Of a stretch of DNA of 64,000 nucleotides, positions 13,909 to 57,582 are shown piece by piece (positions within the stretch are counted from its first letter, which is position 1; each line of letters begins with the position of its first letter). Source of the DNA: Pseudeuparius sepicola (taxonomy: Eukaryota; Arthropoda; Insecta; Coleoptera; Anthribidae); the NCBI GenBank assembly GCA_963920635.1, contig OY987301.1, positions 57,790,560 through 57,854,559 on the forward strand, read 5' to 3'. The notes under the pieces were generated by a model, which worked only from the letters and a program-made list of their open reading frames with translations, was not told where the DNA came from and searched no databases. The position numbers and the translations under genes were made by a program.

Positions 13909-16150
13909 TAATCAACAGCATTGATTGGTTATAAACTAAACTGAGAAAAGTCAATCCTCTAGACGTCAAGCACGTACCTGGTCCGAATATAAAAAATTTA
14001 TTACTTTAATTTCATGAGCCCTTACTTACAGAATTAAGTTAGTAGTTAGACCTGCATCGGTTCAAAAATGTAACGCTAGAATATTGGAGAAGGTGCCAGT
14101 TCTTGGTGATGTTAGAAACATAACATGTAAAACGCAATAAAGCCAAGTTTTCAGTCGAAAAACTTTATTGTCATAGCTTGAACTATTTTAGACCCATTTA
14201 GGTAAATTATATTGTGATTGCCGAAGCATCCTCAAAAAATGACATAATTCTTTAGGATTTTTTCACTATACATATTATATACCTATTTTTTCTGGAAAAT
14301 AAATTTTCATAAGCATATTTTGTGATTGTGGTTAATGGAAGTTAAAAATAAAAAAATATAATGCAGCAGCCGGCCAAAAATTAAGATTTCTTTAATTTGC
14401 AAAAAAAAAAACATTATTTTGCATTCTATGGCAAAACCCCAAATAAGTTATCTATTAAATTTAGTGAAAATATTCCAAAATCAAATAATAGTTTTCATGT
14501 CGCATGCACAGAGTGCAACAAACTGGATGTTTTTTTGGGGGGGTTTCTTCTATTCTGCGAAGAGATAGACAAAGAGTAGGTAGGTGTACTGTGCTCGCAG
14601 TAGCAGTGGAAAGCAGTTGAATCTCAAAATCTTGATTCGTTTTGGAGATACAGGGCATTTTTTGTTTTTTAACATGTCAGACAGTCCCTCCTTGTAATAT
14701 GTTTTGATTTTTGCCAAAAATCTTCTGTCATACTACTCCAATGTATAATAATTATTGAGGTATGTCGGTATGTCTTTGTCAACTAAATCCTGTAAGGTAG
14801 ACCTTCATATTTTTTTATTGCACTTGTGTTGACTTTTTCCAAAATAACAATCTACTGATGTTGTCCATGATTCTTCGCTATTTCCAGGAAGTCAGCTTAC
14901 ATTCATCTAAAATAAGTTTCCCATTAATATGTGCAAAAATTTTACAAGCGTGCTTAGTTCTATTAGTTGACAAAGTTAATGTCACTAGTGCAGAAAAGTA
15001 CAACTTTCCGCATCAAAATGGATGCGACAAAGTGTACTACTACGGACTTAATTAATTAAATACTTCATTAGATCACACAAGAAAAAAATACCCGCAAAAA
15101 GTCATTGACGGTCAAGCACTTGATATCGAATGAAACTCTGCTGTCGAACTTGCATTGACTTTAGATTATTTAAATTAGTTCTGAATCATGGTTTTCACAT
15201 GTAGATATCAACGATCGTTTTCACAAACGCATGATTTCTTGTTTTGATAATCGATTTCAACATTGGGCTGTGCGACACCCCCACGCCCCCTCCCCCATAT
15301 CTTAACTATAGGTATATACACAATAAGTATTTATTTACTGTACTAGGAACTAAACTAGAAGCACAAAAAGCTGTATCTACGTATGTGCCACGATGTATGA
15401 TCCTCGTACATCGTGGTATGTGCATAATTTGTTGGGTAATTACAACATAATATACCTACTTCCACAACTATTCAGTTGAATTTCTTCATTTTTAACCACA
15501 GTATCATTAACATTTTTCTTATTAATTTTGTGCTCGGGGGTCATTTTTGCCTTAACCGGGCATTATGCATTCAATGCTAGGTTCTTTCCTCTGCGTGTCT
15601 CCAATAACATTTTTACCATAATATTTATTCTCTAGTCTACCTAAAACCAGAATTTAAGCTATATCATCATCATTAAGCAATATTAAAACAATATACAAAT
15701 CAAATAACAAACATACCTCTTCATTTCTCCATGTTTTGCTCCCCGTTTTTATTGATAAAATTGACACACCATATCAAAATCTATGCAAGGCAAGTTATCA
15801 GGACAAGCTTTAACAAATCTTGTCTTCATTATAAACCGAAAAAATAAAGTATTCACAGCAAGATTCTTTTAAAACTGAGAATAGAATTTATTTAGTTTTC
15901 ACTAAGGTTATTAACCTTGGCTTCGGCGTTCCGCGGGCGAAAGTGAGGTTATATGCAAAGTGCGGCGTTGCCGACGATTTTCTTTAAAGCATTGAGTAAT
16001 ATGTCATCTGTCATATTTTATAGGGGGCATCTAATAAGTTCAGAATGGGATCAGTAAAATCCAAATATTTCATTGAAATGCTACGAAATTTGATTATTTC
16101 TCATCAGGCGCATACAAACTGAATCTAATAATTTGCCTGGGAATGCTTGG
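13909..16150. other. Non-coding stretch without a recognised gene
   Basis: AT-rich sequence with homopolymer runs. No conserved open frame or repeat family was recognised except the small palindrome at 15389. Confidence 0.5.
15389..15415. mobile_element. 27-bp palindrome with 8-bp TSD (possible excision footprint)
   Basis: CACGATGTA and its inverse TACATCGTG enclose a short spacer. Both sides carry the perfect 8-bp direct repeat GTATGTGC (15381-15388 and 15416-15423). It is the only member of the set with 8 rather than 7 bp. It begins CA and ends TG like most of the others. Confidence 0.75.
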
Positions 16151-16151
16151 T

Positions 16152-16223
16152 TATATAAAAAAAGACGAAAGAAGTACTAAGAAAATAGCAGGTTCTTATT
16201 GAAATTAGGGATCGTGACGTCAC
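16152..16223 (+). promoter_or_regulatory. Possible TATA box and CRE-like palindrome upstream of the Y..GW repeat gene
   Basis: TATATAAAA at 16152-16160 and the palindrome GTGACGTCAC at 16214-16223 (a cAMP-response-element core TGACGTCA) lie 90-160 bp before the first ATG of the next gene. No clear initiator was identified, so the role is tentative. Confidence 0.4.
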
Positions 16224-16311
16224 ATTCCCTACTTTTGCGACCGTTTTTTTCAATTTTTGAGCAAACTAATGGGAAAAAAATCTGTTGGTTGGGTTTCGTG
16301 ATTATCTAGAC

Positions 16312-16896
16312 ATGTTTTACAAATTCCAAGGCAAAAAATTATTTTTCATTCCTAAGTATACTTGTCCATTGTGGCAAAAGTTTATAACACTCGTTGAGAT
16401 GTATTCTCAGAATAAAAGAAAAGTGACAGATGATGGATACAGTGCAGGATGGAGTTCGTATGGTCAGTGGAAAACGGAAGAAAACGCAAATCCAATTAGG
16501 CGATTAAGGGACATTCATGTGAGGCACTATAATGAAGGTTTATACGCGGGATGGTTTGATCATCAGGCTGGTAAGAATAGGCGTTTTCTGGAGGGTGACG
16601 TGAAAATGGATAAAGTTCAATATGGTGCAGGATATCAAGATGGATGGATCAGATACGGTCAGTGTTTTGCGAACGCTAATGACATTTACATGGCTAAATC
16701 TGATATCATTGCATATAATAAGGCGTACTACGCAGGGTGGTTTAATCATCAGCGTCAAATCGAATACGAATCTGGGTATGTGGCAGGGTATTTTCGATTT
16801 GCGAATAATGAGGACATAATACGAAATCGAACGACTTATAATTATGCATATTATGAAGGCTGGTTCGACCGTCTACGCAGACAACGACAGTGCTAA
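16312..16896 (+). CDS. Orphan protein of three Y..GW aromatic-glycine repeats (about 194 aa)
   Basis: Open from 16285 by a non-ATG codon; ATGs at 16312 and 16399 (MYSQNKRK) are the plausible starts, the latter beginning just before the repeats. The repeat body contains GYSAGWSSYGQW...HYNEGLYAGWFDHQ, then YGAGYQDGWIRYGQC...YNKAYYAGWFNHQ, then ESGYVAGYFRF...YNYAYYEGWFDR: three units of about 35-45 residues. Each unit pairs a Y.AGW..YG motif with a YN..YYAGWF.HQ motif. The tail is RRQRQC. An AATAAAA signal follows at about 16940. No signal peptide or metal site is obvious, and I recognise no family. The regular spacing and lack of stops argue for a real, selected protein, perhaps a carbohydrate- or structure-binding repeat; that is speculative. 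Confidence 0.65.
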   Translation: MFYKFQGKKLFFIPKYTCPLWQKFITLVEMYSQNKRKVTDDGYSAGWSSYGQWKTEENANPIRRLRDIHVRHYNEGLYAGWFDHQAGKNRRFLEGDVKMDKVQYGAGYQDGWIRYGQCFANANDIYMAKSDIIAYNKAYYAGWFNHQRQIEYESGYVAGYFRFANNEDIIRNRTTYNYAYYEGWFDRLRRQRQC

Positions 16897-17166
16897 TATT
16901 TGTATATAAGTTTATTGTAACAAAATATATGAATTATTTTAATAAAACAAAACATTAATTAATTTTAGTTTGTTTTATTTATATACTGGTTTCTTGTTTA
17001 GTTTTGTTTACCTATTCCTTACTAACCCACTTTAAAGCAATATTTTTATCGAGGAATTTTAAGTGGAATATTAATAATGTACACAGTTTTTTTTATCAAA
17101 ATAACAATAACAGCAAAATATTCTCATTTAAGTTTTAACATTGAAAGCCTTTTTTTATTAAAATCT

Positions 17167-17530
17167 CAGGTAGGGTCGCACGAGAAGATTTACAAGCAGG
17201 TGAAAATCTAAATAATTTGAACAGTCTGCTATAAAACTACCAGGCAGTAAATTTTTATAACATGCCATTTACAGGACTATAAAAAAAAAGGTCTGACAAA
17301 AAACATTTAAAAGTGGATCATTGTTATGTAAGATCACCCCTTGAAGGAAGGGTCGCGCAAGAAGATTTAGAAACAGGTGAAAGTCTAAAGAATGTGAACA
17401 GCCTGCTATAAAAGTAAAAGGGGGCAAACTTGTCTGCATTTTTGTTGACTCGGCACAAAAAGATTCAAGGTACTAAAACCAGGTGAAGGTGTAACTAATT
17501 TGAACAGTCAGGTGTAAAACTCTGAAAGGG
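17167..17530 (+). repeat. Three diverged direct repeats
   Basis: The block AGGTGAAAATCTAA.AAT.TGAACAG followed by TCTGCTATAAAA recurs near 17200, 17376 and 17483, with matching upstream sequence GGGTCGC.C.AGAAGATTTA in the first two. Spacing is irregular (about 176 and 107 bp). Probably an old tandem array. Confidence 0.7.
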
Positions 17531-18037
17531 TTAACTTTCTCTGGAATTATGCCAAAAATGTTGCCAATTTTACCGAGTCTTAAACGATTGGTCAACCTTC
17601 CGTTACGTGAAATATCTTCCGGTCGCCGTAACGAGTTATAGTTATATTATTATATATTTATTATTGTTAACCAAAATAGTGTTCCTTCTTTTCATTTTGA
17701 AGCCCTGCCACCACCACGAACCTACTCTCCCCGCCGACTGGAGCTACCCGTGAGCTAGCGTATGATTTTACTGCAATAGTTTTCTTAAAATCTGTCTTTA
17801 CAACAAACATAAGTTATAACTAGTCATACCTTCAGTGGTGCACGTAAAAACAAATTCTTGCGTTAGGGTTTTTTTTGTTTGTCAATGTAATTAAGCTCTT
17901 CAAGCACCGAACCCCGTTATTACTATTTTTTTTTGTGGAAATTAATCAAAGTTAATTAAAAATTAAAAGTCTGTTCTTCCCCCCCTTTTACACCCTAACA
18001 CCGCACTCTAACGATGATCCTTTGTTTTCGTTCTACT

Positions 18038-18202
18038 CAGGGACCTACATTGACAGCTATCGGTCGGATGACAGAGTCGTATTTAATAAACCGATGCCTC
18101 CAAAAAAATTTAAAAGCTATGTGCTCTGTTGTTAGTGAAATTGTTTGGCCGCAGTGCACGATACGTCCTGGAGCAAAAAAATGGTGACAACCGAGGTCCC
18201 TG
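18038..18202. mobile_element. Possible 165-bp hAT-like inverted-repeat remnant
   Basis: Ends read CAGGGACCT and AGGTCCCTG, inverted, with weaker symmetry for another 10 bp. CAGGG termini suit hAT elements, but no 8-bp duplication is visible, so this is tentative. Confidence 0.4.
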
Positions 18203-21459: not shown

Positions 21460-21461
21460 TA

Positions 21462-25363: not shown

Positions 25364-26596
25364 TTAGTCGATGAAAAAGTGAGGTATCCAGTGGGATTTA
25401 TCTCTATCTACCGCATAAGCACAAGAATCGGTTACTAGCGCGTTAGGGTGCGCAGGCGTAGTTAAGTAGTAGGTTTGGTTTGCCGATCCCCAGATGAGCT
25501 CACTTATAGGGGCAAAGTTTAAATCATTATTAATTACGTCGTTCCTGACATACCAGTCGGCATTAGTGGCCAAACGCAGGCACTTGTTCTGGATAAGTTG
25601 GAATTTTTTAAGTTGGGGGAGAAGGCCTGGCAGGCATAAGTTATGATGGGTCTAATGACAGATTTATACAGGCTAATCTTTTTCCTAATGCATGGATCAA
25701 AGTCCAATCATAATGACTCATAATGGCTACTCTGGCGTGAAGGGCCTTTTTTGTGATATGACTGAAGATATTCAGCCTTATATCCAGGGAGACCTTAAGA
25801 TAGGTGACCAACTCCTCCCAGTCTATTTGTTCCTTGTTAACGACAATTCTGGGTAGGTTTGGAAGTAGGCAAATTTTCCTTGTATAGGAACGATAGCCAG
25901 AGAGTGGGTAACATTAATTTTGATTCTCTAGTGTTGACAGTACTCTATATAGTACTTGGACTAATGCTGTTTGGAGTTCTCTGATGTAGTTTATGTTTCT
26001 GTTAGTAACATAAACGGCCGTGTCGTCAGCATACATTTACAGGTTGGCATTAGCCGGGACGGAAAGCCCCCTGACGTACACGGTGTAGAGGAAGGGTCCC
26101 AGGACGGAGCCCTGAGGAACCCCTACCTCCGCATCTCGTACGGCCATGGTCAAACCATCCTCCCTGTATTTTCAACATTCCGTTTTGAAATCGATACTCC
26201 GTTCCCTAGGAGACGGAATAGCAACTCCAACAGCCAGACCGTATCAAAGGTCTAGTTAACGTCTCGCAAGGCTATTCCAGTGCCTGTCTGTAAGATTGTG
26301 TGATGCCCCCGCCACTTCTTCTGGGGTTTGTAGCTGGGGAGTGTTGGTTTAAGTATTCTTGCAATGCAATTCAATTCAATTGGTGGATTTGTTGTTTGGC
26401 ACGGGCCTAGTGTCGTGTAGGCCAATCTCAAGAGTGACCAGTAGGTTGTCACTCCCGAGATCCGGTGAAGTTGCGATTTTTGTGTCTCTAATTAGGTTTT
26501 TTACTAGAAAAAAGTCAATAACGCTAGACGATGGGACGACTACAAAAAGGTAGGTAGGTTCATTGGGGGCGAGGATCTCCGTTGGGGAGGAGTTTA

Positions 26597-27583
26597 TACA
26601 GTGTGGATAGAAATTGTGGAATATTGCTTATATTTCTTAAAATATTCCTCATATGAAAAACTTGTTTTAATAAAAGTGTTAGGGGAAATTATTTCCCGTT
26701 TAGTAATATCAAGCAATCTTTCGTAGCACAGAAAATGTGGTTGCCATGGTAACCGACTTGTTTTTTTTTAAATGGCACCATATACGTTTTTTTGGTGAAA
26801 ATTGATACATTGGAACTTTCTGAATACGATACAATATAATTTTATTGGGGTCGCATAAGAAAAAAAATACAAAAAATTAAGTTTTCTATTATGCTATTGA
26901 CAATGTATATCAAAATAATTATAAACATCAAGTTAGCCATGCCAAAATCAGAACAATGGGAAACTGTCACTAGCTGTCAGTTGCTTGTAACTGTGTGCAT
27001 TGTTACAGTAAACGTACTTTTCTACTCAATTTTCTGTGTACTTAAGTACTTAGTAAGTTATAATGGCGCTTGAATTAAGTGAAACCCTTGTCTATCCGAA
27101 ATGGATAGACAAGGGTGAAACGGAAAGAAACATACTAAGTACCTACTTAAGTACACAGAAAATTGAGTAAAAAAGTACGTTTAGTGTAACAATGTACACA
27201 GTTACACAGCTAGTGACAGTTTCGCATTGTTCTGATTTTGGCATGGCTAACTTGATGTTAATAATTATTTTGATAAACATTGTCAATAGCATAATAGAAA
27301 ACTTAATTTTTTTGTATTTTTTCTTATGCGACCCCATTAAAATTGTATTGTATCGTATTCAGAAAGTTCTAATGTATCAATTTTTACCAAAAAAAGTGTA
27401 TGGTGCCATTTAAAAAAATTAAATCGGTTACCATGGCAACCACATTTTTTGTGCTACGAAAGATTGCTTGATATCACTAAACGTGAAATAATTTCCCCTA
27501 ACACTTTTATTAAAACATGTTTTTGATATGAGGAATATTTTAAGAAATATAAGCAATATTCCACAATTTCTATCCACACTGTA
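26597..27583. mobile_element. 987-bp fold-back element inserted in the LINE, TA duplication
   Basis: Ends TACAGTGTGGATAGAAATTG and its inverse, TA on both sides (26595-26596, 27584-27585). The arms, about 480 bp each, are inverted over almost the whole length. It interrupts the LINE endonuclease. Near its centre lies a 29-bp palindrome with its own 7-bp duplication (27079-27121), a later event. No coding sequence. Confidence 0.92.
27086..27114. mobile_element. 29-bp palindrome with 7-bp TSD, inside the fold-back
   Basis: CCTTGTCTATCC and its inverse GGATAGACAAGG are separated by 5 bp and flanked by GTGAAAC on both sides (27079-27085, 27115-27121). It is the only palindrome of the set whose termini are CC...GG rather than CA...TG. 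Confidence 0.8.
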
Positions 27584-27652
27584 TAATTGTATATTAGTGT
27601 GCCCGCTCTGTTATTGCGGGATGGGAACCAGGAATTTTGCTTTGCGTTGAAG

Positions 27653-28450
27653 CTAGACCAACACTATATTAAAGACCCTAAGGACCGCTGTTTCAAGCGA
27701 TCTCCACTGGCGCTACACGAAGAAACAAATTTACACGGTGGTTTAATGTGAAAACACCATTGTTGCAGAATCTTTTATAAAATAAAAACATGCAAATGTG
27801 TCTGTTACAACGAATTTAATATACAAAATAAAATAAAATATTTGACTCTAATTTGACAAGTTCGCATGGCATATTTCCATACATTTTTTTAAGAAAAGCG
27901 AGTCTAAAAAGCAAGCAAGAGTATTTGGTACCTTTTGGTTTGAAATGAAGTCCATGGCTATAGTTGTAGTGTAAGTAATCATAAAACGCAATAGATTTTT
28001 CAGTTTCTTCTTTATATGGAGGACTGTTGGTTCGCTTTGGAGCTATAAACAAAATTTTCTATTTTCATTCTTGCATATGTTACAAAATACTCTTCCAAAA
28101 TAATATCTAGATTTTTCGCTTCTTCAGCTGGTTGATCAGATCATCCCATAATTCCAAAATTGTGTTTATTCTTCTGCAATTCACCTAATGGCCTTTGAAG
28201 AGTGCATACCATTTTCTTCATGTGCATGGAAATTTCATGTTATCACAAACAAATCTACCTATAAAAGCTGTGTTAATAGGATAAAACTGGTGAATACTGG
28301 ACGCAGAGACAATTCGTTACCGTAAAAAGAAGGCAAATCGTAATAAAACTGGATATTTAAAATTTGGGATGTCGAGTGGCGCTACCCCAGTCCGTAAACA
28401 ACAATGAAATATGACGTCATGCTCGGGTCTTTAATATAGTGTCGGTCCAG
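27653..28450. mobile_element. 798-bp DNA element inserted in the LINE endonuclease, 7-bp TSD
   Basis: Ends CTAGACCAACACTATATTAA and, inverted, CTGGACCGACACTATATTAA. GTTGAAG is duplicated at 27646-27652 and 28451-28457. The target is the FN codon pair of the LINE's GDFN motif, so removing the element and one GTTGAAG restores the expected order of LINE sequence. The interior has no transposase; an open frame at 27816-28052 is not convincing. Superfamily unassigned. Confidence 0.85.
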
Positions 28451-28830
28451 GTTGAAGTCTCCTGGTACAATTGCGCAGCTGGAAGGAAGGGCATCCGGGA
28501 ATAGTTGTTCTGATATTTCATTTATAACGAAGTCTCTGGAGGCAGGGTATAAACAGAATAGATCACGAGGGAGGTGTCCCGCTCGCAGATTTGTATAGAA
28601 GTATATTCTAGGTTTTCATCCTAGGAAGATTCTTTCCACATGCTGAAGTTTATGTTTTTTTTTTACTGCTATGAGGACGCCTCCCCCACGGCCGTTTAGT
28701 CTGTCTCGACGGATAATCTGGTAGGGGTGTAATCTGTAGGAAAATTTCCTGCACTATAGAGACACGTCAATGTCGTTGTCTAATAAGTATGTGAGAAATT
28801 CTGTTTTTTGTCTAGTGTATCTACTAAAGG

Positions 28831-29387
28831 CGTCTAACTCGCCTGAACTTTTTTATGCTTCACTGCACACCGACTGATCGACATGTCATAACAATGTACA
28901 TCTGCAGACCATCGGCTGATGTACTAGAAGTTGAAATTGGCTTCAACCTGAGCTAGCAACATCATTGCCATTACTGCAGCTGTCAAACTGTCAGGCTTAG
29001 TCGTAGTCTTGATCAGAACTTTAGCGGATAGAGGACTTTGAATCACTCCTGTCCTGGATACTTTGATTAGTCATGTAAGGTATTCTCTTGTCAAAGTGTT
29101 CTAATTTTAAGATCATACGTGCAGCATATTAGAATTTTTGAGCTTTTTGGACGTTATCGTGGCGAGTTGATTTGGACATTCTTTGTCCCCTCATAGCAAT
29201 TTAATTCTATTTTAATTTTGTAATAATCTCATTTAACAATTTTTAAATCTAATTTCAACTTTTCACTGTAAACTATTTAACTAATTCTTATTTGTTAACC
29301 AATTTAGACTTTGGCCAATAAATAACCCTTGTAAATAATTTAAATCTGTGTTTTATTACTTCGTATCAATATATTGAGTCATATAAC
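28831..29387. other. Sequence upstream of the LINE fragment, unassigned
   Basis: May contain the degraded start of the LINE endonuclease or ORF1 region, but no motif could be read with confidence. Confidence 0.4.
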
Positions 29388-30500
29388 CAAAGTCTAGAGA
29401 ATACTATAAGTCGGCGCACTCGGCCTTGTGTAAACAAACGTTTCCCCCCTGCCGTCTCCCGCTCCCTCGGCCCGCCGTCATCAGAGTACGACGATTGATA
29501 TCTTATTTGATAAGAAAATAAGCTTATAGACCGGGAGGTAGTGACAGATTTTTGGACGTGATTTTACTCAGTATGCCTTGCAAAGGGCATTATGTGGCAC
29601 ATATTCTCACAATAATAAGGTATGAATCAGAGAGTCATCCTGGGTTCTTCATGTGAAAAACTGAGTTTTCAATTATTCGAAAAATATGCGTTTTGATATG
29701 ATTTTATACAGGCTGCCATGTGTTTTATAATGAAGTTCAAATAGAAAATTCCTCGGAAAACCATAGGCATACCGTTAGGGTGGGTCCAAAGGGCTATTAT
29801 TGCCACGTGATCTTGTATTTTAATAATTAATTTTTCCACGTTTCTGAACAGGCTGCCAATGAGAAGTATGCAAGTTCTTGTTATGAAACTGCTGAAGAAA
29901 AGATGGCATACCGTTTGCGCATATCCAAGTACACTTAACATCGAATAAATCGTTTAAATTATTAAATAACATTCAATTTAAACAGTACTTGAACAAGCGT
30001 AAAAGGTATGCCATCCTTTTTTCAGCATTTTCATAACAAGCACTTGCATACTTCTCCTTGGCAGCCTGTTCAGAAAAGTGGAAAAACTAATTATTAAAAT
30101 ACAAGTTCACGTGACAATAATAGCCCTTTGAACCCACGCTAACGGTGTGCCTATGGTTTTCCGAGGAATTTTCTATTTTGAACTTCATTATAAAACACAT
30201 GGCAGCCTGACTAAAATCATACCAAAACGCATATTTTTCGAATAATTGAAAACTCAGTTTTTCATATGAAGAACCCAGGATGACTCTTTGGTTCATACCT
30301 TATTATTGTGAGAATATGTGCCACATAATGCCCTTTGCAAGGCATACTGAGTAAAATCACGTCCAAAAATCTGTCGCTATCTCCAGGTCTATATGTAGCT
30401 GAGAGCGGTTCGAGGCTGATTTACGACCAGTCGCAAAAAATTGTTGTTTTCTCCGAGAGAACAAAAAAGTGAGCTGACTTATAGTATTCTCTAGACTTTG
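29388..30500. mobile_element. 1.1-kb fold-back element, CAAAGTCTAGAG termini, 7-bp TSD
   Basis: Both ends read CAAAGTCTAGAGAATACTAT inward, flanked by ATATAAC (29381-29387 and 30501-30507). Inner arms of about 400 bp (29525-29935 and 30005-30390) are strongly inverted; the segments between the tips and the inner arms are unrelated. No transposase. The same terminal sequence with the same TSD length forms the 26-bp palindrome at 50755. CA...TG ends and 7-bp duplications fit the P superfamily (7-8 bp TSD) better than hAT (8 bp), but no transposase supports this. Confidence 0.88.
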
Positions 30501-30507
30501 ATATAAC

Positions 30508-41407: not shown

Positions 41408-43675
41408 GATTTACCTGTACAGTGTACAGAGGACTCTGAGGCGCGGGGCCGGTCAAAACGCTGGGCCGGGTGCGCCGCACCGTTCGCACCCGCCTAGTGC
41501 CGGCCCTGACCAGGGCGTCCATTTTATATGTGGCAGACAAAGCGAGTACGTTGTGAGTTAATTTCGCTAATTTGTGAAGTAAAAGTAACTGTGCTTAAGG
41601 GGAAAATATTATACTCTTACGATGGTGAATTGTCTGCAAAAGCAGAAGTGAAAAGTAAGAGCCCGGGATTTCTTTTCAAAGGTAAATATTTAACAAGCTA
41701 CCATTGAAAGATGGCCTAAAACTGTATTTTTTTCTCAATAATAACTTCTTAAAATTCCTTGTCTCTTTTAGTATGATAAAGTGCACTGTTTTGTTTGTAA
41801 ATAGGACCAATATAATTATTCTTAACATGGTCTTTAGTGAAAAATTTTAATTGATTATGATAGTTTCATTAAATATGGGCTGGTTTCCATGGGCGTGCAT
41901 TATTTACTTTATTGTGATTGATTCGAAATCGCCACAAATAATATATATCAGCACACCAGCTTCACATTTGGGAAATTATCTGCAAATAAATACCAATAAA
42001 TTTAAATTACGTGTAAGTCAAAATTAACTACCTTTTCATTTTTAAAATTTTTGTGATATTGGCTAAAAACGCGTTTCATGCTATGCCAGTGGCCTGTCGT
42101 GCGATGTGGCAGTCGGTAACACGGCCGCGAGCGCTATTATTTTCTTGTCTAAGATAATATTATTGTAGATATCTACTGATCTCAGACGCGGAACGCGTCT
42201 ATTATATTGCAGTTCTCCGGTGTCAACTTAGAGTGCACGGACTGTAATAGAAAATATTCCACCTTCGAAAATTTGCAGCAGTAGCAGAAATCCGCTATTA
42301 TTTACGACGGCTGATTTTTGGAGGAGGCGGGCAGCAAGCAGCCTAGCGATGGCCCTGGCCCTGACTATGTACGTGAAATGTTACAGATTGCTTGATTTGA
42401 AAACTATGAAATTTTCCCCCATATGTCTACTGCATAAAACGTTCATAAACGGATATGTCCAGAAAAATAACAAACACAAATAAAACAAAGTCGAAAAAGC
42501 CATTATACACCCAAAGCACTTCCATAAACAACGCTACCAAAATACAACACAAATCGTCGACACTCATCTTCAAAGCATCGTTGCCGGATTGGGCAAAAAT
42601 CTCAGAAAATTAAAGCGAAAATAGTCAAGAAAGAAGGGTAAACAGTAGTTGTCTGATAGATAATTGAATTGTTTTTTTTTTCACCCCAATGTGAGTCGTA
42701 GCATATAAAGGTGGTATTTTCTTAGCCTGATGGATAATTGATATTTATATGCAACTATTGATCAAATGAATAATGCTATTGAATTTATCTTGGGGCAGCT
42801 TTGTTTTCCATTTCCATAAAAATGTATTATACCTACAACATAATATTAACCTTATTTTATGTAGCACTAGTATTGTTTATATCGTTATCATTTTGTCATC
42901 ATATGGGAACCTCGCCTTTGGAATATTGGCAAATAAACAAAATTTCTACAGAAACAAAACATTACGGTACTGGAAGCGGGGTATTTTCGGTTGAGGTAGA
43001 TTAAAAATAGATTAAAAATAGAGTTCAGGTGTTAAAAATAGAGTTCAGGTGTTCATACATATCTGACGCATAGTTAAGATAGTGGCCTACAAAATCCAGG
43101 TCAGCACAGAGATTCGACTAATTTACTGTTGCGCAGGAATGTCCGCGAAATGCGGTTGATTTCAGAAACGACAGAAAAATGTATATTTAGTAGATAAAAT
43201 AACGAGTTTTGCAGCCAGAAAGGTATATATTAACTTCTTTTTATAATACTTCGGTTTATAATACTTTCGGTCTACTTCGTGACCTTCATCAGGGCTAGAA
43301 AATTATTTAAATTATTAGAAAATATTGAGAAAAGGTTGAAAATTTTACTCACAATTATGTTGAAGTTTTTTACCAATATTAAAACCAGATAGATTTTAGG
43401 TTTAAAAGGGCCAGAAAAAGGTTTTTACATAATTTCGTGTGAAAATTTATACCGTCAATTTTGTTTGTAATTGTTTTTTGTTAATAAGGTAATTTAGTTT
43501 CAAAAAACAAAAGATAAATTTATAATAAGAAAAAATGTTTTTTAGGTTATCATCAAAAAGTGTCAGAAAACTTGGTGTGATACAAGGTTAGAAATAACCT
43601 TAGTTGATATAAGGTTATGTTACAACATTCTGGAAATCCAAATTTTTATATATAATTATTATAAGATGTAAGAGT

Positions 43676-44860
43676 TACAATGAAATATTAATAGATGTAT
43701 TGTTATTAGAATTATTTAAAGATAAAATAAAACAGTGTATGGAACTTAAATCTTTGATGTCTGTTTTTTTATTAATAGACTTGTTATCATTATTAATTTC
43801 AACCATTTCAAGAAATAACCTTTTATTAAGATTTTTTTCCCTATGTAATATTGAAACATTGTCAAATTTAAAATGATGACCTGTTATAAAAGCATGTTCA
43901 CTTAAAGCAGTAGTAGTTTTTTGTAATTTGACATCACTTTTATGTCCTGAAATTCTATTTTATAAATTTTGTGATGTTTGACCAATATATGAATTATTAC
44001 AGTTGTTACAAGGTATTGAATAAACAACATTAGATTGGTTATTTATAGGTGTCTTATCTTTTAATTTTGTGTATAAACTTCCAATCGATTTAACATTTTT
44101 TAGAGCTATTTTAACATTTTCATTTTTAAAAATTTTAGTTATTTTAGGGGTAAGTTCTTTAATATAAGGTAATGACCTATAAAAGAAATGATCAGGAATA
44201 TTATCAACCTCTTGAATTGCAGTAATATTATCATTATTATCATTATTATAAACATTACTTGAAATTTCGTGGGGACGTGTATTGAAAAGTAATTTGTTAA
44301 GGAATTTTTCAGGGTAAGAATTATCCAAAAATATAGATTTAATTTTGACTAAATTATTATGCAGTAAAGTTGGATGAACTAGTTTTATTATTCTATTTTT
44401 TAAAGCCAAGACAAGATTCGTTTTCATTTTATTGCTATGATAAGAATGATAATTTAAGTATCTATTAGAGTTAGTCGGTTTGATATACCAATCAGTAATT
44501 AGAGTGTTATTAGCAAGTTTAATAATTTTAGTGTCCAAAAAAGGAATAGTGTTGTTTGTTTCCATTTCTATTGTAAATTGTAAATATTGATTATAATTAT
44601 TGAAGATATCTAAAGTTTCTTCAATTTTATTGAAAGGTATACAACATATAATATCATCTACATATTTTTTTTAGAAAAATAACGTTATATGAAAGTCTTG
44701 AAATACAGTAATCTAATAAATCATCCATAACATACTGCGCAATAATAGGAGAAATTGAGTTACCCATAGGTGTACCAAAAATTTGTTTGTAATATTGATT
44801 GTTAAAAGAAAAATGGTTAGAGTTAACAATTTTAATTTTAACAATCAATATTACAAACAA
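43676..44860 (-). pseudogene. Left Penelope-like copy: RT and GIY-YIG, frameshifted
   Basis: Minus-strand copy. 44860-44654 carries FNNQYYKQIFGTPMGNSISP and breaks at an 8-T run (44665-44672 region) where the other arm has 7. 44565-43960 continues with FLDTKI, the linker rich in Asn and Lys, and VVYSIPCNNCNNSYIGQTSQ, the start of a GIY-YIG endonuclease. A stop follows, and then the remaining GIY-YIG residues stay open to about 43676. The YVDD catalytic motif lies next to the frameshift. It is probably inactive. Confidence 0.88.
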
Positions 44861-45967
44861 ATTTTTGGTACACCTATGGGTAACTCAATTTCTCCTATTA
44901 TTGCGCAGTATGTTATGGATGATTTATTAGATTACTGTATTTCAAGACTTTCATATAAGGTTATTTTTCTAAAAAAATATGTAGATGATATTATATGTTG
45001 TATACCTTTCAATAAAATTGAAGAAACTTTAGATATCTTCAATAATTATAATCAATATTTACAATTTACAATAGAAATGGAAACAAACAACACTATTCCT
45101 TTTTTGGACACTAAAATTATTAAACTTGCTAATAACACTCTAATTACTGATTGGTATATCAAACCGACTAACTCTAATAGATACTTAAATTATCATTCTT
45201 ATCATAGCAATAAAATGAAAACGAATCTTGTCTTGGCTTTAAAAAATAGAATAATAAAACTAGTTCATCCAACTTTACTGCATAATAATTTAGTCAAAAT
45301 TAAATCTATATTTTTGGATAATTCTTACCCTGAAAAATTCCTTAACAAATTACTTTTCAATACACGTCCCCACGAAATTTCAAGTAATGTTTATAATAAT
45401 GATAATAATGATAATATTACTGCAATTCAAGAGGTTGATAATATTCCTGATCATTTCTTTTATAGGTCATTACCTTATATTAAAGAACTTACCCCTAAAA
45501 TAACTAAAATTTTTAAAAATGAAAATGTTAAAATAGCTCTAAAAAATGTTAAATCGATTGGAAGTTTATACACAAAATTAAAAGATAAGACACCTATAAA
45601 TAACCAATCTAATGTTGTTTATTCAATACCTTGTAACAACTGTAATAATTCATATATTGGTCAAACATCACAAAATTTATAAAATAGAATTTCAGGACAT
45701 AAAAGTGATGTCAAATTACAAAAAACTACTACTGCTTTAAGTGAACATGCTTTTATAACAGGTCATCATTTTAAATTTGACAATGTTTCAATATTACATA
45801 GGGAAAAAAATCTTAATAAAAGGTTATTTCTTGAAATGGTTGAAATTAATAATGATAACAAGTCTATTAATAAAAAAACAGACATCAAAGATTTAAGTTC
45901 CATACACTGTTTTATTTTATCTTTAAATAATTCTAATAACAATACATCTATTAATATTTCATTGTAA
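44783..45967 (+). pseudogene. Right Penelope-like copy: RT C-part and GIY-YIG with one stop
   Basis: 299 codons are open to 45682. GTPMGNSISPIIA starts at about residue 28, catalytic YVDD at about 66-69, then FLDTKI (about 105). The GIY-YIG nuclease begins VVYSIPC..C...YIGQT at about 278-295. The stop TAA at 45680 is followed by a further 94 codons in the same frame reading NRISGHKSD, TTALSEHAF.TGHHF and EKNLNKRLFLEMVEI, the rest of the GIY-YIG domain. A Penelope element needs both RT and this nuclease. The fingers and early palm motifs are absent because the copy begins at the palindrome centre. Confidence 0.9.
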
Positions 45968-46444
45968 CTCTTACATCTTATAATAATTATATATAAAAAT
46001 TTGGATTTCCAGAATGTTGTAACATAACCTTATATCAACTAAGGTTATTTCTAACCTTGTATCACACCAAGTTTTCTGACACTTTTTGATGATAACCTAA
46101 AAAACATTTTTTCTTATTATAAATTTATCTTTTGTTTTTTGAAACTAAATTACCTTATTAACAAAAAACAATTACAAACAAAATTGACGGTATAAATTTT
46201 CACACGAAATTATGTAAAAACCTTTTTCTGGCCCTTTTAAACCTAAAATCTATCTGGTTTTAATATTGGTAAAAAACTTCAACATAATTGTGAGTAAAAT
46301 TTCAACCTTTTCTCAATATTTTCTAATAATTTAAATAATTTTCTAGCCCTGATGAAGGTCACGAAGTAGACCGAAAGCTTGGTATTATAAAAAGAAGTTA
46401 ATATATACCTTTCTGGCTGCAAAACTCGTTATTTTATCTACTAA

Positions 46445-48595
46445 GTAAAACTACACAGCCGTAAACTAGCTATTTATTGAAAAATGTATAAACAGAATTA
46501 ATTCAAATACCGGTGTCCATCTCTCATACTCCCATATATACTCTAGTAAAATGTACACTGTAGCTTGTAAATTCTTCTACTATAAAATTTTGCCTCTCGT
46601 AATAGATCCTTACTAGAAATAATTATTGATTATTTTATATTTATTCAGTTTTATCAACGCTTATATTTATTATTAATTATTACAAACAATTACGTTAAGG
46701 TCTTTCGTCATAGTAAATAAATGACAAATTTGTATTTTTTGCAATTGGCCAAATCGAACCTACTTAGCTTTATTGAAAATGAAATCATAATTAAATTATA
46801 CTCCTATTTAACTGCGTCCATAATTTTGCATTTACTGTAATTTTAGCTATAGATTAGGTAAATGTATTTATTATAGCCTTCAGTGTATTTGGCTTTATTT
46901 TATAACCGCAAAATCCATTAGTTTAGGTTAAATTATAGATGGGATATTTGAATTGATTTCGAACATTTCTGTGCAAAATGGCCACACGTTTTCTAACATT
47001 CGTCATTGTTTTTTTATTTTATAATAAAACAAGTTGCCATAAGGTTTATCCCAGGGTTTACTACAGATATATCAATAATTACCTACCCTAATTTATACAA
47101 TCGTATCATACAAAAAAAAACAGAATTTTTGTATACCAAAAATGGACAAATTTAATGCGTCGACAATGCTTTAGATATAGTCCTCCTTACGGCAGAATGC
47201 GTGCGACGTAAGGGGGAAGAACTCGCAAATATTATAGAATTAGTCACAGTTCAGGGGCGTAGCTCAATTTTGTGTAACTCACTGACTTAATTTTCATATA
47301 ATTATTGTTATTTAATTTATTGTTAATATTATTCTTAACGGTGATGCCTTAGACTCTGGAGGAAGGCAAACCCTTATACCATTGGCAATTATTTCTCGTG
47401 CTTGAGAATGCAACGTTCTTCCCTGTTTACTCATTTTGCACACGTTAACTCCCGAACATACGAAACGCCACTGAGCTCTCTGAGCCGGATGAAAAAACTT
47501 GCCAGCGGCCTAAAAAATGAGATCTGTGTGGTAGCCCAAATACGAAGTTAACTTTACATACTATAGAAACAGGCACAAAACGCGTTGGCTAACTGATTTT
47601 GTCAGCCGGCTCCTTGGCAGAACTGCTGTGTTGCCGTATTTCAAAGGCGATGGTAGACGCGACGATGTTGAAAAAATATAATAGGTGTTTTATCACACCG
47701 CGTTAAAAATAAATGATAAACAAAAATTGGTGAGTGGACCCGTGATGCGAGCTTTATTTTTTCGGTATAATAGAGTTCAGAAATTCGGCTTCAATATGAT
47801 AAAACTTGTATTCGCCAATAAATAACGACTACTCGTATAGGAAATCTCGCAACGCTGCCCGCATTCTTTAGAAACGTTTTCTTTTGTGCTTTGGACTATA
47901 AGCGTTGGGTGAAGATTTAAAAAGAGAATCTACGCCCATGGAACAGCGTGCCGATTTAAAAACAGCACACTGTTTTCTGGGGTATACTGGGATAGCTCGG
48001 TGGGAATTACAAATGGGACATTTCGGGTCTGGCAATATCTTGATTTTGACTTTTGACAGGGTTTTACTTGACATTAAGCCCTGGGAATTGGACCTGGAGA
48101 AAGTGAAAGGTTAGAAAGCGATTTTGTGCGAATTTTGGAGCTAAAAGGATATTCTTGGGCAGTGACAGTAATCTGACAAGTTTATTTGTGTTTTTTGAAG
48201 GCTACACAATAAAGGTGGTAACCAAGGTAACGAGTTTGGACTGTGATTTTTGAGATTCATTACAATATTATTTGCCCCTTTCACTGCTCCCTTTCGCGAC
48301 CAGAAATTTACTTGGGGAAAGGACCCGCCCAAATACACTTATTAAACAGGGGTATCATTCCATCCTTTTCCCTTCAATAGAAATCGTATATTACATCAAC
48401 CACACACGAGCAGAAATTTTATATTTCCAGCGCCATAGATGGTGTTTATTTTCAACGGGTACTAACGTTGGGATCTATAGTAAACCATAGAGCTGCGGGT
48501 GAGACTTCGAATTTCTTTTAGCCTCGAAACTCTTTTTACACATTGTGAAACTATTGACTAGTGGGGGACTATTATTATTGCCAAAACAAATAACA
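46445..48595. other. Non-coding stretch
   Basis: No gene recognised. A GGGGCGTAGCTCAATTT segment near 47253 looked like a tRNA A/B box at first but forms no cloverleaf. Short open frames near 47868-48114 show no family resemblance. Confidence 0.5.
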
Positions 48596-49803
48596 TACAG
48601 TGTGTCCAACTTTAAAACTGTACAAATCCGTAAAATCTTCATTTTTGGAGACAATCGCCCAAACTTTTTTTTGTTGGAAAGGCCTTCAAAAACCGCTTCT
48701 TTTGACCTTCCTGTCATTTTCAAAATGCAAATCCAGGGCCGGCTGCGATTTTTTTATACCCTCGATTTTCACGAAAACCATTTAGCGATTTTTTTATTTA
48801 AAATCTGACACCACAGCATTAATCAGAACACCCAAAAACCCCTTTACAATCAATTTGAATAAAAAATATACAGGGAGTTCCAATCTGCAGGGTGTCAAAG
48901 TTGAGCAAAATAGGACTTTTAAAGGTATCTGCCAAGTCAAGATTGCCATGGAATCCCCCCAAAACAGTTAAATAGTCAATAAGACCACTCAAGGTGTTGG
49001 TGTGCAAAGATCCAATACAAAATATACAGAGTGTTCTTATCTGTGCCATCTCAAATTACTGAATTTGTTGTACTTTATACGGGTCAAAAATCGAGTATAT
49101 CAAAACCGCTCCACACACTATAAACAAACTAAATCTAAAAAATACATAAGTCTGCCAGTCCGTAAGTTCATATCAGTTAAGGTGGCTGGTGTGCCACAAC
49201 AGGAAACACACAGAAAATGTATCATCTTAGACAGTGACTTTGTTGAGTAAGGTCCAATAATTTAAATTGTTTTTATTTGTTAGTTGGCATTTTGTAAAGA
49301 AATACATTACTTTTGTGTTTATCAATATTTTTTCAATGATTCCACAGCACTCATGACCCATATAAAGTTTCATAAAAATTCAGCATTTTGAGATGGCACA
49401 GATAAGAATACTTTGTATATTTTGTATTGGACCTTTGCACACCAATACCTTAGTGGTCCTATTGACCATTGAACTGTTTTGAGAGGATTCCCTGGCACAA
49501 ATTTGACACCATGCAGAATAGAACTCCCTGTATATTTTTTATTCAAATTTGGTATATAGGGGTTTTGGGGTGTTCTGATTAACGCTGTGGGGTCAGTTTT
49601 TAAATAAAAAAATCGCTAAAGGGTTTTCGAGAAAATTGGGGGTATAAAAAATGCTAGCCGGCCCTGGATTTGCATTTTGAAAATAGCAGGAAGGTCAAAA
49701 GAAGCGGTTTTTGAAGGCCTTTCAAACAAAAAAAGTTTAGGCGATTATCTCTAAAAATGAAGATTTTACGGATTTGTACAGTTTTAAAGTTGGACACCCT
49801 GTA
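48596..49803. mobile_element. 1.2-kb fold-back, TACAGTGTG/CACCCTGTA ends
   Basis: Left TACAGTGTGTCCAACTTTAA, right inverse ...TTAAAGTTGGACACCCTGTA. Arms are about 410-460 bp (48596-49060 and 49390-49803), with internal TACAGGGAGTTCC and TACAGAGTGTTCTT motifs suggesting older nested ends. TA follows on the right; the left flank is CA, so one duplication has mutated. The unpaired middle holds no gene. Confidence 0.85.
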
Positions 49804-49805
49804 TA

Positions 49806-52023
49806 ATAATTGTATATGCGTTAAAATGTTCTTACTTATATAATTTATTTATGTTGACAATATTTCTGGATTTGGTATTTAGGTATTTTCTTAAAAAATG
49901 TGTTTTCTCATTTAACTATTTGATTTTATTCCTCTCTGTCAAAAAATGTTCAAAGGTAATTCTGAATGAAAATGGGTAATTACTTTCTGGCGTGTTCAGT
50001 CAATACCTACTTAAAATTCCTACATTAGGTACATACATAGTCAACAGTTTAAAAAATCCTTATTTACCTACTTTTACTATTTTTGTTTATATCACTAATA
50101 AAAGTAGCATTTCATAAAACAGTGTCAGTTTTTTTATTAAGAAATTCATTTTCGTCAATGTAATTTGAGCAAAAACTGCAAATTAAACAGTTATAGAGGG
50201 CAGGCCGTTACCTTGATTTAACTATAGAGAAAAATCAAACGGCAGAACATAAAAAACGCGATCACGTAAATTCAACAAAAGTGTCTACTTAAAACTGAAC
50301 TTAGCACTTAGCAGCCAATTTTCTAGGAGCCAAAAATTTCAACGTGTATTTTTTGATGAATATTTTTCTTCATTCTCCAGTTTAATCTGCTTAGAAGGTT
50401 TAATAATAGTTACCCTTTCTACTTTATTTTTATCAAAATAAATTTGTGGAAATAAGGGCGAGGAAAATTTTTTGCTGCCAGAAAATCGGCTACTAACTTT
50501 ACACCGGTTTAGTTAGGCACATTGATTTTTAAATGTCTTCCGATATTTGGCCCCGCCTGTTTAAGTTTAAATAGTTACGAGCCGCCACTGATTAAGTGGT
50601 GTGGTATCATAGTTTGGCAGATATAAGCAATAATATCGTTTTAACAATGGCAGGCATTGTCCTAGTTAGCGAGCTTTTAAAATTGAGGGTACAGTTTACT
50701 CCGGCCTTGTTTTTTTCGACAAAAATACACCCTGTATACACTGTGTACTGATAGCAAAGTCTAGTATCCTCTAGACTTTGCTGATAGGTTCGGCCAATTA
50801 TTGGGGCAACACCAAACAGAATGTCAACTTACAATTAGAATTTTTGTATCGTTTACACCCCTTGGGCACTGAATCGCCGGACACACAGTATATATTTTTA
50901 TTAGTTACTTACGGTTACGTTATCTGTGCTTAAGCTAAAAAAATAAAAATAAATAACAACCTCTTTCTGTATTCAACATTTTTTCAGAAAAACGCCTCGG
51001 TACATTAAAAAATATTCCCTAATAGAGGGAAGGCAATCAGCTTTTTCACTTTTCTCAAAGTTTTCATTTTGGACATAGGTTTTGTTTTTCAAATCAACGT
51101 AAGACATTGAAGCAACATAATGTAGATCACTATATCCTAAAAAAGATAATTTTAAAAATCTGCCAATCCGTTAAAATCGTCAAATATCAAACTGAAATAC
51201 GCCCAACCCTGAATCTATTCCTAATTTTATAAAAGCCAAATCGTAGAATTATTTCACTGGCCCCTTCTCCCTTCTCCCCCCGTGTCTATTTTTAGACTTG
51301 TTTGCCCCGCCCCGAACACAAACGAGCCTTTTGGAATACGAAATTGTCGAGTACGAAATCTACTATCTACGAAGTCTAATTATCGATTTTGTTAGAGTCA
51401 TTGTAATTATCGAAAATAGATGGTGCTAAACAGTAGTACTGGACGAGAGCTAAATAGAAATAATAATACCGCTATACACCAGTAGATGGAGTTGGTGCGC
51501 GGAGGCGAATGACTACGATCATTGGAAAAAGTTTTAAATACAATCGAATATCCATAGTCCTTCGCCTCCAAAAGCGCTCGGCATTTTATCTGGATCCGTG
51601 AGAGGTCTTTTTAAACCTTCAGTCAACGCTATAAGCATTGTCGGCAGTCTGATAATGTTGAGAAATAATTCGCTCGTTAAATTTTCCTTGAAAACGAAGT
51701 GTGCAAGCAGTGTCGAATCCATAATATATTTTTTTGTGCAAAGTTAAGAAGTGTTCTTTCAAGGTAGTTAATATAATATTACATTATAAAAAGTGTTTTG
51801 AATTTATACCGTCAACACTTATATTTTCCTTTGCAAGCCTATAATATTTATAAAAAAATACCCATTAGAAGGTTTTGTGTAACAGCTGTCAATTATATTT
51901 TCGAAGCGCTAATGCAAATAGCATAAAAGGAGCTTTCCAATTGTACCACATTCTAGAGGTTCGTTTTATTTTCAGTATTTCAGAGTTTCTTAAAGCTTAC
52001 AAACCCCAGGAGCTATTATTATG
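49806..52023. other. Non-coding stretch
   Basis: Apart from the palindrome at 50755 and a CACCCTGTATA motif at 50729, no element or gene was recognised. A 62-codon ATG frame at 51722-51534 (minus) is discussed among the rejected items. Confidence 0.5.
50755..50780. mobile_element. 26-bp palindrome with 7-bp TSD, same ends as the 29388 element
   Basis: Reads CAAAGTCTAG, then TATCC, then the inverse of CAAAGTCTAGA, between two copies of CTGATAG (50748-50754, 50781-50787). Seen from the right, its first 16 bases (CAAAGTCTAGAGGATA) match the terminus of the 1.1-kb element at 29388-30500 with one difference. It therefore consists of 10 nt from one end and 16 nt from the other, with everything between missing. 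Confidence 0.88.
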
Positions 52024-52355: not shown

Positions 52356-52418
52356 TTGGAGTATATTAGGCTGCGTCGCTGCGTCCACATACTACACCCT
52401 GCGTAGTGTCAGTAAAAG

Positions 52419-52452
52419 CACAGACCTATATAGCTTCCTATATAGGTCTGTG
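52419..52452. mobile_element. 34-bp palindrome with 7-bp TSD
   Basis: CACAGACCTATATAG and its inverse with four central bases (CTTC), between GTAAAAG (52412-52418) and GTAAAAG (52453-52459). The length is exactly 2 x 17. Confidence 0.88.
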
Positions 52453-52459
52453 GTAAAAG

Positions 52460-55400: not shown

Positions 55401-55669
55401 TCTCTCAGTTGTTCAACAAAATGGCTATCGTTTATAATTAGTATTAAAATAAAATATGTCCAATTATCTAGCTTATACGCTGTGATATGTTTGAATGATT
55501 TAATGATTTAATGTTTTTAACATGTGACAAAGCTGTTCTCTCGTCCTCTATAGTTTTATATAACATATGGCATCTAAAAATTTTTTTTGTACACCTGTGA
55601 ATAGAAATTCCGTTTTCCCAACCTGATTATACGTGTTCCATCCTCTAAATTGTGTAATGCTCTCTTCTA
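52460..55669. other. Non-coding stretch
   Basis: AT-rich with long homopolymer runs; no gene, TIR pair or retroelement motif recognised. Confidence 0.5.
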
Positions 55670-55709
55670 GGTGGTACTGATGATGGCTAAAGCCGAAAGC
55701 GCTCTACCA
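55670..55709 (+). ncRNA. Hammerhead-ribozyme-like motif
   Basis: Box CTGATGA (55677-55683), then a GGC-TAAA-GCC hairpin after one extra T, then GAAA (55695-55698). GC-GC could form a minimal helix III ending in UC (55099-55104 in the order G, C, G, C, T, C at 55699-55704). The outer helix pairs GGTGGTA (55670-55676) with TACCAT (55705-55710) over six pairs. This is the type I hammerhead layout known from Penelope-like element terminal repeats. The extra base between CTGATGA and helix II, also seen in the Penelope copies here (46349 and 43292), departs from the consensus, so activity is doubtful. Confidence 0.45.
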
Positions 55710-55759
55710 TGCCAATTTAAATAAAAATATATTTTTGCACGAAAATACATCTCGCATTT

Positions 55760-56480
55760 TCATATATATATAATCACTTGCACACAGCCGACACTTTTCA
55801 TGATAATTTTTGGACTGTGATTGGCATATAAAATGATGCAGGCTGAACATTTTCGCACCAAATGCCAATTTTGCCATTGCTTAATATGATTGTGCACAGG
55901 TGGCGCACTTGGCAATGATTTATCACAGTGAAAATATATTACTCCTTGATGCTTACAGAAGTTTCCTAATCTACCATGCGCACAGCTGCAGAAACTAGCA
56001 TCGCAGTCAACTTCATACAACACTTCAGAACTTTTTTCACTTGCAACTTTATATAAGGTGAAATTTTTTTTATATGGTCCTCTTTGACGTAGGAAGCCTA
56101 TGCAAGTTGCTTTTGAAGAAATAGGCGTGGTGCTGCAGTTCTTCCGCGAACAAAAGTTCTAAGCCGCCTAAGATAATATTCCTCCATACTCCATACTAGT
56201 ACCTACATGTAAAATCAACTAAGACAATAGCGTTGTATGCCTTATTGCGTGATAAAACAATGTCTTTGTAGAGTCTAACGTTAACTTCACTGAAATTATT
56301 TGTTTGGTGGCCATACGTTGTGAAATCCCTAAATGCCAAGCACCATAATTCTTTCCGATTCCAGTAATCTCCCAAGTAACGCATGATAACGCATGATAAC
56401 GCATGATACACGCAATTGCGCCAAACGCAAAGCAACATGAAAGGTAATTTTGAGATGTAATAGAATTTTTTCAAACCTTT
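55760..56480 (-). pseudogene. MULE-type transposase C-terminal part with SWIM zinc finger, decayed
   Basis: Upstream part (56474-56196) reads YLGDYWNRKELWCLAF, then TTYGHQTNNFSEVNVRLYKD and AYNAIVLVDF, the W..R..W...(R)...G..TNN..E....KD.VL.R..AYN...L.DF pattern of MULE-like transposases and their domesticated relatives. Downstream (56023-55760) is VDCDASFCSCAHGRLGNFCKH, a SWIM C.C...CKH finger. The two are separated by a stretch with stops. A 10-bp unit GCATGATAAC repeats about three times at 56381-56410 in the coding part, giving a shift. The catalytic DDE region was not found. Confidence 0.75.
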
Positions 56481-57139
56481 TTACAGGTAAGAAGCTTATG
56501 AAAAATACATTTTCACGCTAGTACCATACTACGCAGAGAGTACAGAGAAGGAAAATCACAGAATCACTGGCTATTGTGGCCAGGATTCAAGATAAGCGAT
56601 AGGCCAGCGCCACCTGGTGGTGGTCAGCATTCAAACTACTATTGTGAGTATTGTGTACTAATCCCTAACTTATTTATGTTTTGTGACTGCCACAATAATT
56701 CGCAAAACAATCTCCAATCCAATCTAAAATCAGTAAAATCTGGGATGGTATTTAATATTCCCCTAACTAAATTTCCAATATTTAAAGGGGATTATCAAAT
56801 ACCAACTCAGTTTTTAGATTGGCCACACTGTCAAACAAGGAAAGGTACCGCGGAAATTTCTGACACAAAATGAAAATTTAAAATAAAGAAAATCTAACAG
56901 GAAAAGAAGAGACATGATGTGTGCAATAGCCAACACAGTTTCATCAACATGGTAAGGTAAGTAACAAGGTAAGTATCCACATATAATAGAAACATAGAGT
57001 TTCGTGGAAATATTCGTTCCAAGAAGCAAGATAATATCGTTCATAGAGTATAATATCAAGCAGAATCCAAAAGATCAAGAAAATGGGTAGTAACTGTATT
57101 TCCAACTACTTGTACTGTAGGCATAATTTATTCCACTTT
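56481..57139. other. Non-coding stretch
   Basis: Open frame at 56574-56873 contains no recognised motif. May include the lost upstream part of the MULE. Confidence 0.45.
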
Positions 57140-57146
57140 GTCTAAT

Positions 57147-57177
57147 CAGTGACTATAGATTCTTTCTATAGTCACTG
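57147..57177. mobile_element. 31-bp palindrome with 7-bp TSD
   Basis: CAGTGACTATAGA, five bases, and the inverse TCTATAGTCACTG, between GTCTAAT copies (57140-57146, 57178-57184). The CA...TG ends and CTATAG core resemble the 34-bp example at 52419. Confidence 0.87.
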
Positions 57178-57555
57178 GTCTAATGAAGTAGGTACATTAT
57201 TAATATTTAGGAATTCTCAATAAATTATATTATAAACTTATTTTTATTATATTGTTTATTTTATTAAATAAAATACATAATATTATCTACCTATGTGTGT
57301 ATACATAATATCCATTATTTTATTAGTTTATTTTTCGATACTTACGAAAATTGCAACGCAACATCACAAATAAACACATTCTTCTTAAAATTAAACGAAA
57401 GTTGTCCCGCTATTTATTGTAAAAAAAAAGTTGGTAATAATGTGATTTTATTCACTTTTCTACCCACTGATAGAAAACCTATGAAACGTTTACATATTGA
57501 ACCTTTTTTCATAATAGGGAGATTGAAGGTTCCCACTCGTAACATTTAGTATCAC

Positions 57556-57582
57556 CAAAGATATATACAACCTATATCTTTG
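57556..57582. mobile_element. 27-bp palindrome with 7-bp TSD
   Basis: CAAAGATATA, seven bases, then TATATCTTTG, between GTATCAC copies (57549-57555, 57583-57589). It sits just past the end of the decayed hAT transposase. Confidence 0.85.

Follow-up and report, generated by a model that had tools for sequence, protein, structure and literature searches.

A 64,000-bp stretch of the genome of the beetle Pseudeuparius sepicola (positions 57790560-57854559 of contig C4, in an assembly of 769 Mb and 16 contigs; hereafter the window) contains six short palindromes, each enclosed by a perfect direct repeat of 7 or 8 bp, and raises the question of what process leaves such structures behind. The palindromes, none of which is assigned a strand, lie at 15389-15415 (27 bp; 15381..15423 with its 8-bp duplications, GTATGTGC), 27086-27114 (29 bp; 27079..27121 with GTGAAAC, in the loop of a longer inverted-repeat element at 26594-27586), 50755-50780 (26 bp; 50748..50787 with CTGATAG), 52419-52452 (34 bp; 52412..52459 with GTAAAAG), 57147-57177 (31 bp; 57140..57184 with GTCTAAT) and 57556-57582 (27 bp; 57549..57589 with GTATCAC). 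A sequence-only reading had described them as likely excision footprints of a P-like transposon group; all six, with their perfect flanking repeats, were found where it placed them, and the CA...TG ends that it gave to five are present in five of the six, the palindrome at 27086 beginning with CC. We conclude that the palindromes are very probably excision scars of P-superfamily DNA transposons, for the most part short elements with no gene of their own, because different states of the same sites are found in the genome, the terminal repeats of some scars are identical to those of other scars or of complete elements, and P transposase sequences are present. The footprint interpretation is thereby upheld by the states of one site, by the match of scar 50755 to a complete element and by the abundance of P transposase.

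Empty, occupied and scarred forms of a single site

The clearest case is provided by M1, a 260-bp element at 13642-13901 (13635..13908 with its CTAGTGT duplications) whose ends are identical over the first 37 nt. Both M1 and palindrome 15389 sit within a multicopy repeat (12937-16372), copies of which were among the 51 loci fetched from the genome (L001-L051, ~288 kb; L001-L028 via the repeat of 15389, L039-L051 via P transposase, and L029-L038 at random). Nine fetched copies have both flanks of the M1 site. Three of these are empty, with a single CTAGTGT (L021, L022) or a single TTAGTGT (L024); three are occupied by an element of 259-270 bp (L009, L014, L025), as is the window with its 260-bp copy; and three are scarred, the scar being 34 bp long in both L018 and L027 and present in L006 in an altered form of 33 bp. 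Scar and full element lie between the same duplications, so the three forms expected of an excision footprint are present at one site. In the orientation of the window the left M1 end contributes 20 nt to the scar and the right end 14 nt, and the three scarred copies may descend from one excision. A further seven loci contain the right flank alone (L001-L005, L007 and L008, L001 being the window's own locus), and the other loci of this repeat set stop short of the site. The full insertions and empty sites that the sequence-only reading had proposed to look for in other individuals or related species were found among repeat copies within the same genome for the M1 site; none was found for 15389 among the loci fetched.

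Counterparts that have a single copy of the duplication were also found for three other scars outside the window. The scar at L051:5392-5430 has an empty counterpart in L047 with an exact single ATAATAT, and the scar at L048:5780 has a one-copy counterpart in L019, in a unit of the same tandem repeat. For the scar at L021:2687-2710, three of the seven corresponding places (L022, L025 and the window) are empty, with one 8-bp copy, and the remaining four are altered (L014, L018, L024, L027). Self-comparison of the window yielded no empty sites for the six palindromes other than inverted-repeat matches.

A protein-level comparison is available for scar 57556, which lies in a minus-strand gene for a hAT transposase and breaks its 3' end. 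Once the 27-bp scar and one of the two 7-bp copies are taken out, the gene again has the conserved ending of the homologous hAT proteins. Of 53 proteins found, 50 matched the region around the scar, and 37 of these scored better without the scar and the extra duplication, 12 equally and one worse; 26 align without a gap across the junction. The comparison shows scar 57556 to be an insertion at the protein level. The interrupted gene (57600-59450) is decayed and contains frame breaks, another of them near 57722; its relatives include a protein from Psylliodes chrysocephalus as well as numerous unnamed records.

Terminal repeats shared by scars and complete elements

A search of the window for 7-bp repeats enclosing inverted ends returned 17 rows (controls: 4, 0, 3, 5 and 1), from which M1, two further elements and one weak candidate were kept. 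A more stringent search, limited to ends whose first base is C, gave 16 rows against one hit in five Markov sequences; 13 of the 16 were dropped, their repeats being near reverse complements that match at 6/7 positions, and M1, M2 and M3 remained as clear, complete elements with perfect 7-bp repeats. M2 spans 27653-28450 (798 bp; 27646..28457 with GTTGAAG) and M3 spans 29388-30500 (1113 bp; 29381..30507 with ATATAAC; terminal repeat CAAAGTCTAGAGAATACTATAAGTC), and as with M1 no strand is assigned. Both M3 ends begin CAAAGTCTAGAGAATAC. On the minus strand, scar 50755 reads CAAAGTCTAGAGGATAC and then TAGACTTTG; compared by eye, 16 of 17 nt agree with the M3 terminal repeat. The scar is thus ~17 nt of one M3-type end joined to 9 nt of the other; a 3-nt overlap makes the junction uncertain (16-19 plus 10-7). 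The attempt to match the palindromes to the termini of longer elements, as the sequence-only reading had suggested, has so far succeeded for 50755, with M3, and for none of the other five palindromes of the window.

Scar 50755 lies inside the weak candidate, a possible older element at 47903-51628 (3726 bp; 47896..51635 with CTATAAG; no strand assigned) with ends CGTTG..TGAAG.TTTAAAAAG that match at 14 of 17 positions; the Markov controls yield 0-5 such rows each. Beside this candidate we note that the arms of the scar at L035:2273-2309 begin CGTTGACTGAA.

Eleven scar sites were accepted beyond the window in the fetched sequence: the M1 site, L004:2973, L014:2920, L018:4784, L019:2878, L021:2687, L035:2273, L048:2028, L048:5780, L049:600 and L051:5392. 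Eight of them pass a relaxed CA..TG scan that gave three hits in 4.52 Mb of control sequence; the duplications of the L014 and L019 scars match at 6/7 positions. Two rows in a six-letter-type tandem array in L008, the microsatellite rows of L031 and a 70-bp row were set aside, as were L032:1463 (doubtful), L034:7847 (GC-rich), L051:2252 (64 bp) and L050:212 (57 bp). Several terminal repeats recur among scars and elements: CACAGACCTATATAG is common to 52419, L019:2878-2907 and L051:5392-5430; CAGTGACTATAG to 57147 and L014:2920-2947; the M3 end to M3, L009, 50755 and L004; and CACGATACAC to L021 and the complete element L033:3252-4305, the first 10 nt of which recur in the left arm of the L021 scar. 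Sites with common terminal repeats differ in their duplications and junctions. We take M1, M2, M3 and the L033 element to be non-autonomous. The M3 terminal repeat gave no matches in viral contigs.

P transposases and target preference

A search for the RNase H family of P transposases returned 1,302 candidates in the genome, and the 150 scored matches were all above the cut-off. These matches include several groups with identical scores and open reading frames of 700-870 aa, which suggests a very large transposase family that has been active recently. Two long elements that carry transposase sequence and have matching ends were delimited, one at L051:898-6148 (7-bp duplication GTATACG; transposase split over two open reading frames) and one at L049:1349-5945 (8-bp duplication ATTCCAAC; a single reading frame of 821 aa). 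Pfam domains of P type occur in all five reading frames scanned, with at least two in four of them and one in the fifth; the GTP-binding domain is found in three of the five and THAP9_C in one, and no match to the THAP zinc finger was obtained in the five at E 0.001. The L048 reading frame matches the solved structure of the Drosophila P transposase (6p5a, 6.6e-44). The genome therefore contains transposases of P type, with an RNase H fold and a GTP-binding insertion.

The target duplications are 7 bp long at five of the six window scars and at M1-M3, and 8 bp at 15389 and a few outside sites. Among 16 hand-gathered 7-bp targets, position 2 is T in 14 and position 6 is A in 13, so that target duplications of 7-8 bp are accompanied by a palindromic motif of T..A type. 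This count covers five window scars, M1-M3, the weak 47903 candidate, six outside scars and the L051 element; it omits the 8-bp sites (15389, L021, two in L033, two in L049 and a weak L050 row), the two sites with 6/7 matches (L014, L019) and an L037:1550 row (AAAATTT). The bias resembles that of Galileo, a member of the P superfamily with 7-bp duplications and the palindromic target consensus GTANTAC, according to the available part of PMC4168063.

A model for scar formation

The available part of PMC7776569 describes the P transposase of Drosophila as cutting one strand 17 nt inside the terminal repeat, so donor ends should keep stubs of the terminal repeat that are then end-joined, and the scars described here are compatible with such a scheme. 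An element would enter a target of 7 bp, or sometimes 8 bp, and duplicate it; the transposase would later make its cuts within the terminal inverted repeats at either end, on the strand retained by the donor; and end joining with trimming would seal the two stubs, leaving ~10-20 nt of each. The product would read duplication, outer left repeat, reverse complement of the outer right repeat, duplication, and would form a hairpin with a short and often off-centre loop. Short elements of the M1-M3 type would in this scheme be moved by the P transposase; this assignment, like the place of the cut and the way in which the ends are repaired, is inferred. The link between M1-M3 and P transposase is drawn because of duplication length, target motif, type of scar and a likeness of ends to the L049 element.

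The limit of 17 nt per end, or 34 bp in total, proposed in the sequence-only reading does not hold. In the M1 scar 20 nt of one end are retained, as is probably the case in the L051 scar, and scars longer than 34 bp occur in L035 (37 bp), L051 (39 bp) and possibly L018 (50 bp). The last of these, at L018:4784-4833, is a palindrome with 22-bp arms and ATTTTAC repeats that exceeds the other scars in length; it may be a scar or a very short element. A near-constant sum of arm and loop, 16-19 in the six window palindromes (permutation fraction 0.0056), was considered as a general property and rejected, since it failed outside the window, where the sum is 20 in the M1 scar, 13 in L004, 10 in L048:2028, 23 in L035 and 28 in L018:4784.

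Evidence against and alternative explanations

Several observations weigh against an origin by P-type excision. Of the six window scars, 50755 alone can be linked to a complete element. The links of 52419 and 57147 are to further scars, and no convincing terminal-repeat match was found for 15389, 27086 or 57556. No transposase-bearing element with the exact terminal repeats of M1, M2 or M3 was found in the analysed sequence; the likeness of ends between M1 and the L049 element, which has an 8-bp duplication, is a match by eye at 12 of the first 14 nt. Position 2 is not T in two of the 16 duplications. The 20 nt kept in the M1 scar exceed the 17-nt stagger of Drosophila P, and the sum of arm and loop ranges over 10-23 in the outside scars (28 with the 50-bp case); the stagger would then differ among elements, or repair would have added bases. 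All 27 other loci retrieved through the repeat around palindrome 15389, with a query that contained the palindrome, carry it either intact or with a part missing, so that 15389 is no more than a candidate insertion. Six of these loci (L013, L014, L018, L020, L023 and L028) lack part of it, which gives the impression that the hairpin is easily deleted; in L028 just 4 nt of the palindrome and a single copy of the flanking repeat are left.

The density of scars is a further point of this kind. A random sample of ten 10-kb stretches (L029-L038; eight contigs of known length were eligible and six were hit) contained, in 100 kb, a single clear scar (L035:2273) besides a doubtful case of 45 bp (L032:1463), after removal of microsatellite rows, a GC-rich row and the 70-bp row. 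The density of six per 64 kb in the window, which had been chosen for its richness, is higher than this. One scar per 100 kb would amount to several thousand genome-wide, with a very wide error.

An origin from a different superfamily that makes 8-bp duplications, hAT for instance, is unlikely. The 8-bp duplications at some sites (15389, L021, L049) and the presence of a hAT gene in the window would fit such an origin, and terminal repeats starting with CA and a T/A target motif are features of hAT elements too. Most sites, however, carry 7 bp rather than the 8 bp that a hAT origin calls for, P transposase sequence is abundant in the genome, and we know of no hAT excision that leaves 10-20 nt of each terminal repeat. 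In Drosophila melanogaster, duplications are 8 bp in 99.83% of insertions of hobo, a hAT element, and 7 bp in 98.21% of those of 1360, of the P superfamily (PMC3276498, available part), which favours P for the 7-bp sites.

It is very unlikely that the palindromes are themselves tiny mobile elements, 26-50 bp long, whose own insertion creates the 7-8 bp duplication. Their duplications are perfect, each palindrome looks self-contained, and the 50-bp palindrome of L018 is longer than the others; yet the CACAGACCTATATAG group varies in length (34, 30 and 39 bp) and in junction, as independent repairs would, at the M1 site one and the same duplication flanks the scar and the full 260-bp element, and 50755 holds unequal parts of the two ends of a 1.1-kb element.

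Chance hairpins or microsatellite-like sequence between short repeats are scarcely credible: the window is AT-rich (66% A+T) with many long inverted repeats, and low-complexity stretches can mimic the pattern (L031), but a scan for perfect 7- or 8-bp repeats around palindromes of 20-40 bp with an outer arm of at least 9 found six in the window against 13 in total, and at most one per shuffle, in 3,034 dinucleotide shuffles, which rules out chance for the set, and homologous sites without the insert refute it wherever such empty homologs exist. This comparison with shuffled sequence, made on the window, bears out the expectation of the sequence-only reading. The window contains 20 hairpins with an arm of at least 9 and a loop of 3-10. 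Seven are edged by direct repeats of 7-8 bp, namely the six palindromes and one at 58998 inside a 13-bp tandem array; the other 13 have edge repeats of 0-3 bp, except for one with 5. A relaxed scan (7-bp repeat with at least 6 matches, arm 9/10, C at the start and G at the end) recovered five of the six palindromes and no additional decayed case in the window, with one hit in 10 Markov control sequences.

Other mobile elements in the window

Many mobile elements and long inverted repeats are distributed across the window. A Polinton/Maverick-like element occupies 1-12200, its right limit being a guess, with a type B DNA polymerase, an integrase core and a chromodomain below threshold; the best named relatives of its polymerase, among 120 of 7,847 matches listed, are beetles, which makes a beetle host likely from the sequence itself, although the gene is mobile. 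The element at 26594-27586, whose loop holds scar 27086, has long inverted repeats with ends CAGTGTGGATAG and TATA flanks, and is probably Tc1/mariner-like. At 43184-46447 lies a large inverted duplication with arms of 1348 nt that are 99% complementary; it has a reverse-transcriptase-like open reading frame (RVT_1 score slightly under the cut-off), and is probably Penelope-like.

Discussion

In Drosophila, the excision products of P elements keep the target duplications and stubs of the terminal repeats. The scars described here differ in being natural, in numbering possibly thousands per genome, in belonging to several terminal-repeat groups, in having mostly 7-bp duplications and in keeping up to 20 nt of one end. 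They share 7-bp duplications with Galileo and 1360 (7 bp being modal for 1360; available parts of PMC4168063 and PMC3276498); the likeness lies in duplication length and, for Galileo, in target motif. The available parts of these two papers contain no excision scars of Galileo or 1360. Outside Drosophila, the available part of PMC10983969 describes a P-superfamily transposase in zebrafish, THAP9/Pdre2, that excises its own element; it differs in its 8-bp duplications and in that excision was seen in cell assays rather than in a natural archive. Among the literature matches listed, judged on titles and the openings of abstracts, we found no description of a dense natural set of P-type scars.

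A more far-reaching interpretation, which we offer tentatively, is that P elements have expanded greatly in this genome and excise so often that their hairpin scars run into the thousands or beyond and together make up a legible record of excision and end-joining repair, with cuts up to ~20 nt inside the terminal repeat, unlike those of the Drosophila enzyme. P-element excision is a textbook reaction known mainly from engineered flies, and here its natural products can be identified as hairpins. This names a source for short perfect hairpins that otherwise seem unexplained. Empty and full versions of the sites could make the excision rate, the cut position and the choice of repair measurable from sequence alone, and the findings point to the P superfamily as a group that is large in this genome and has probably been active recently.

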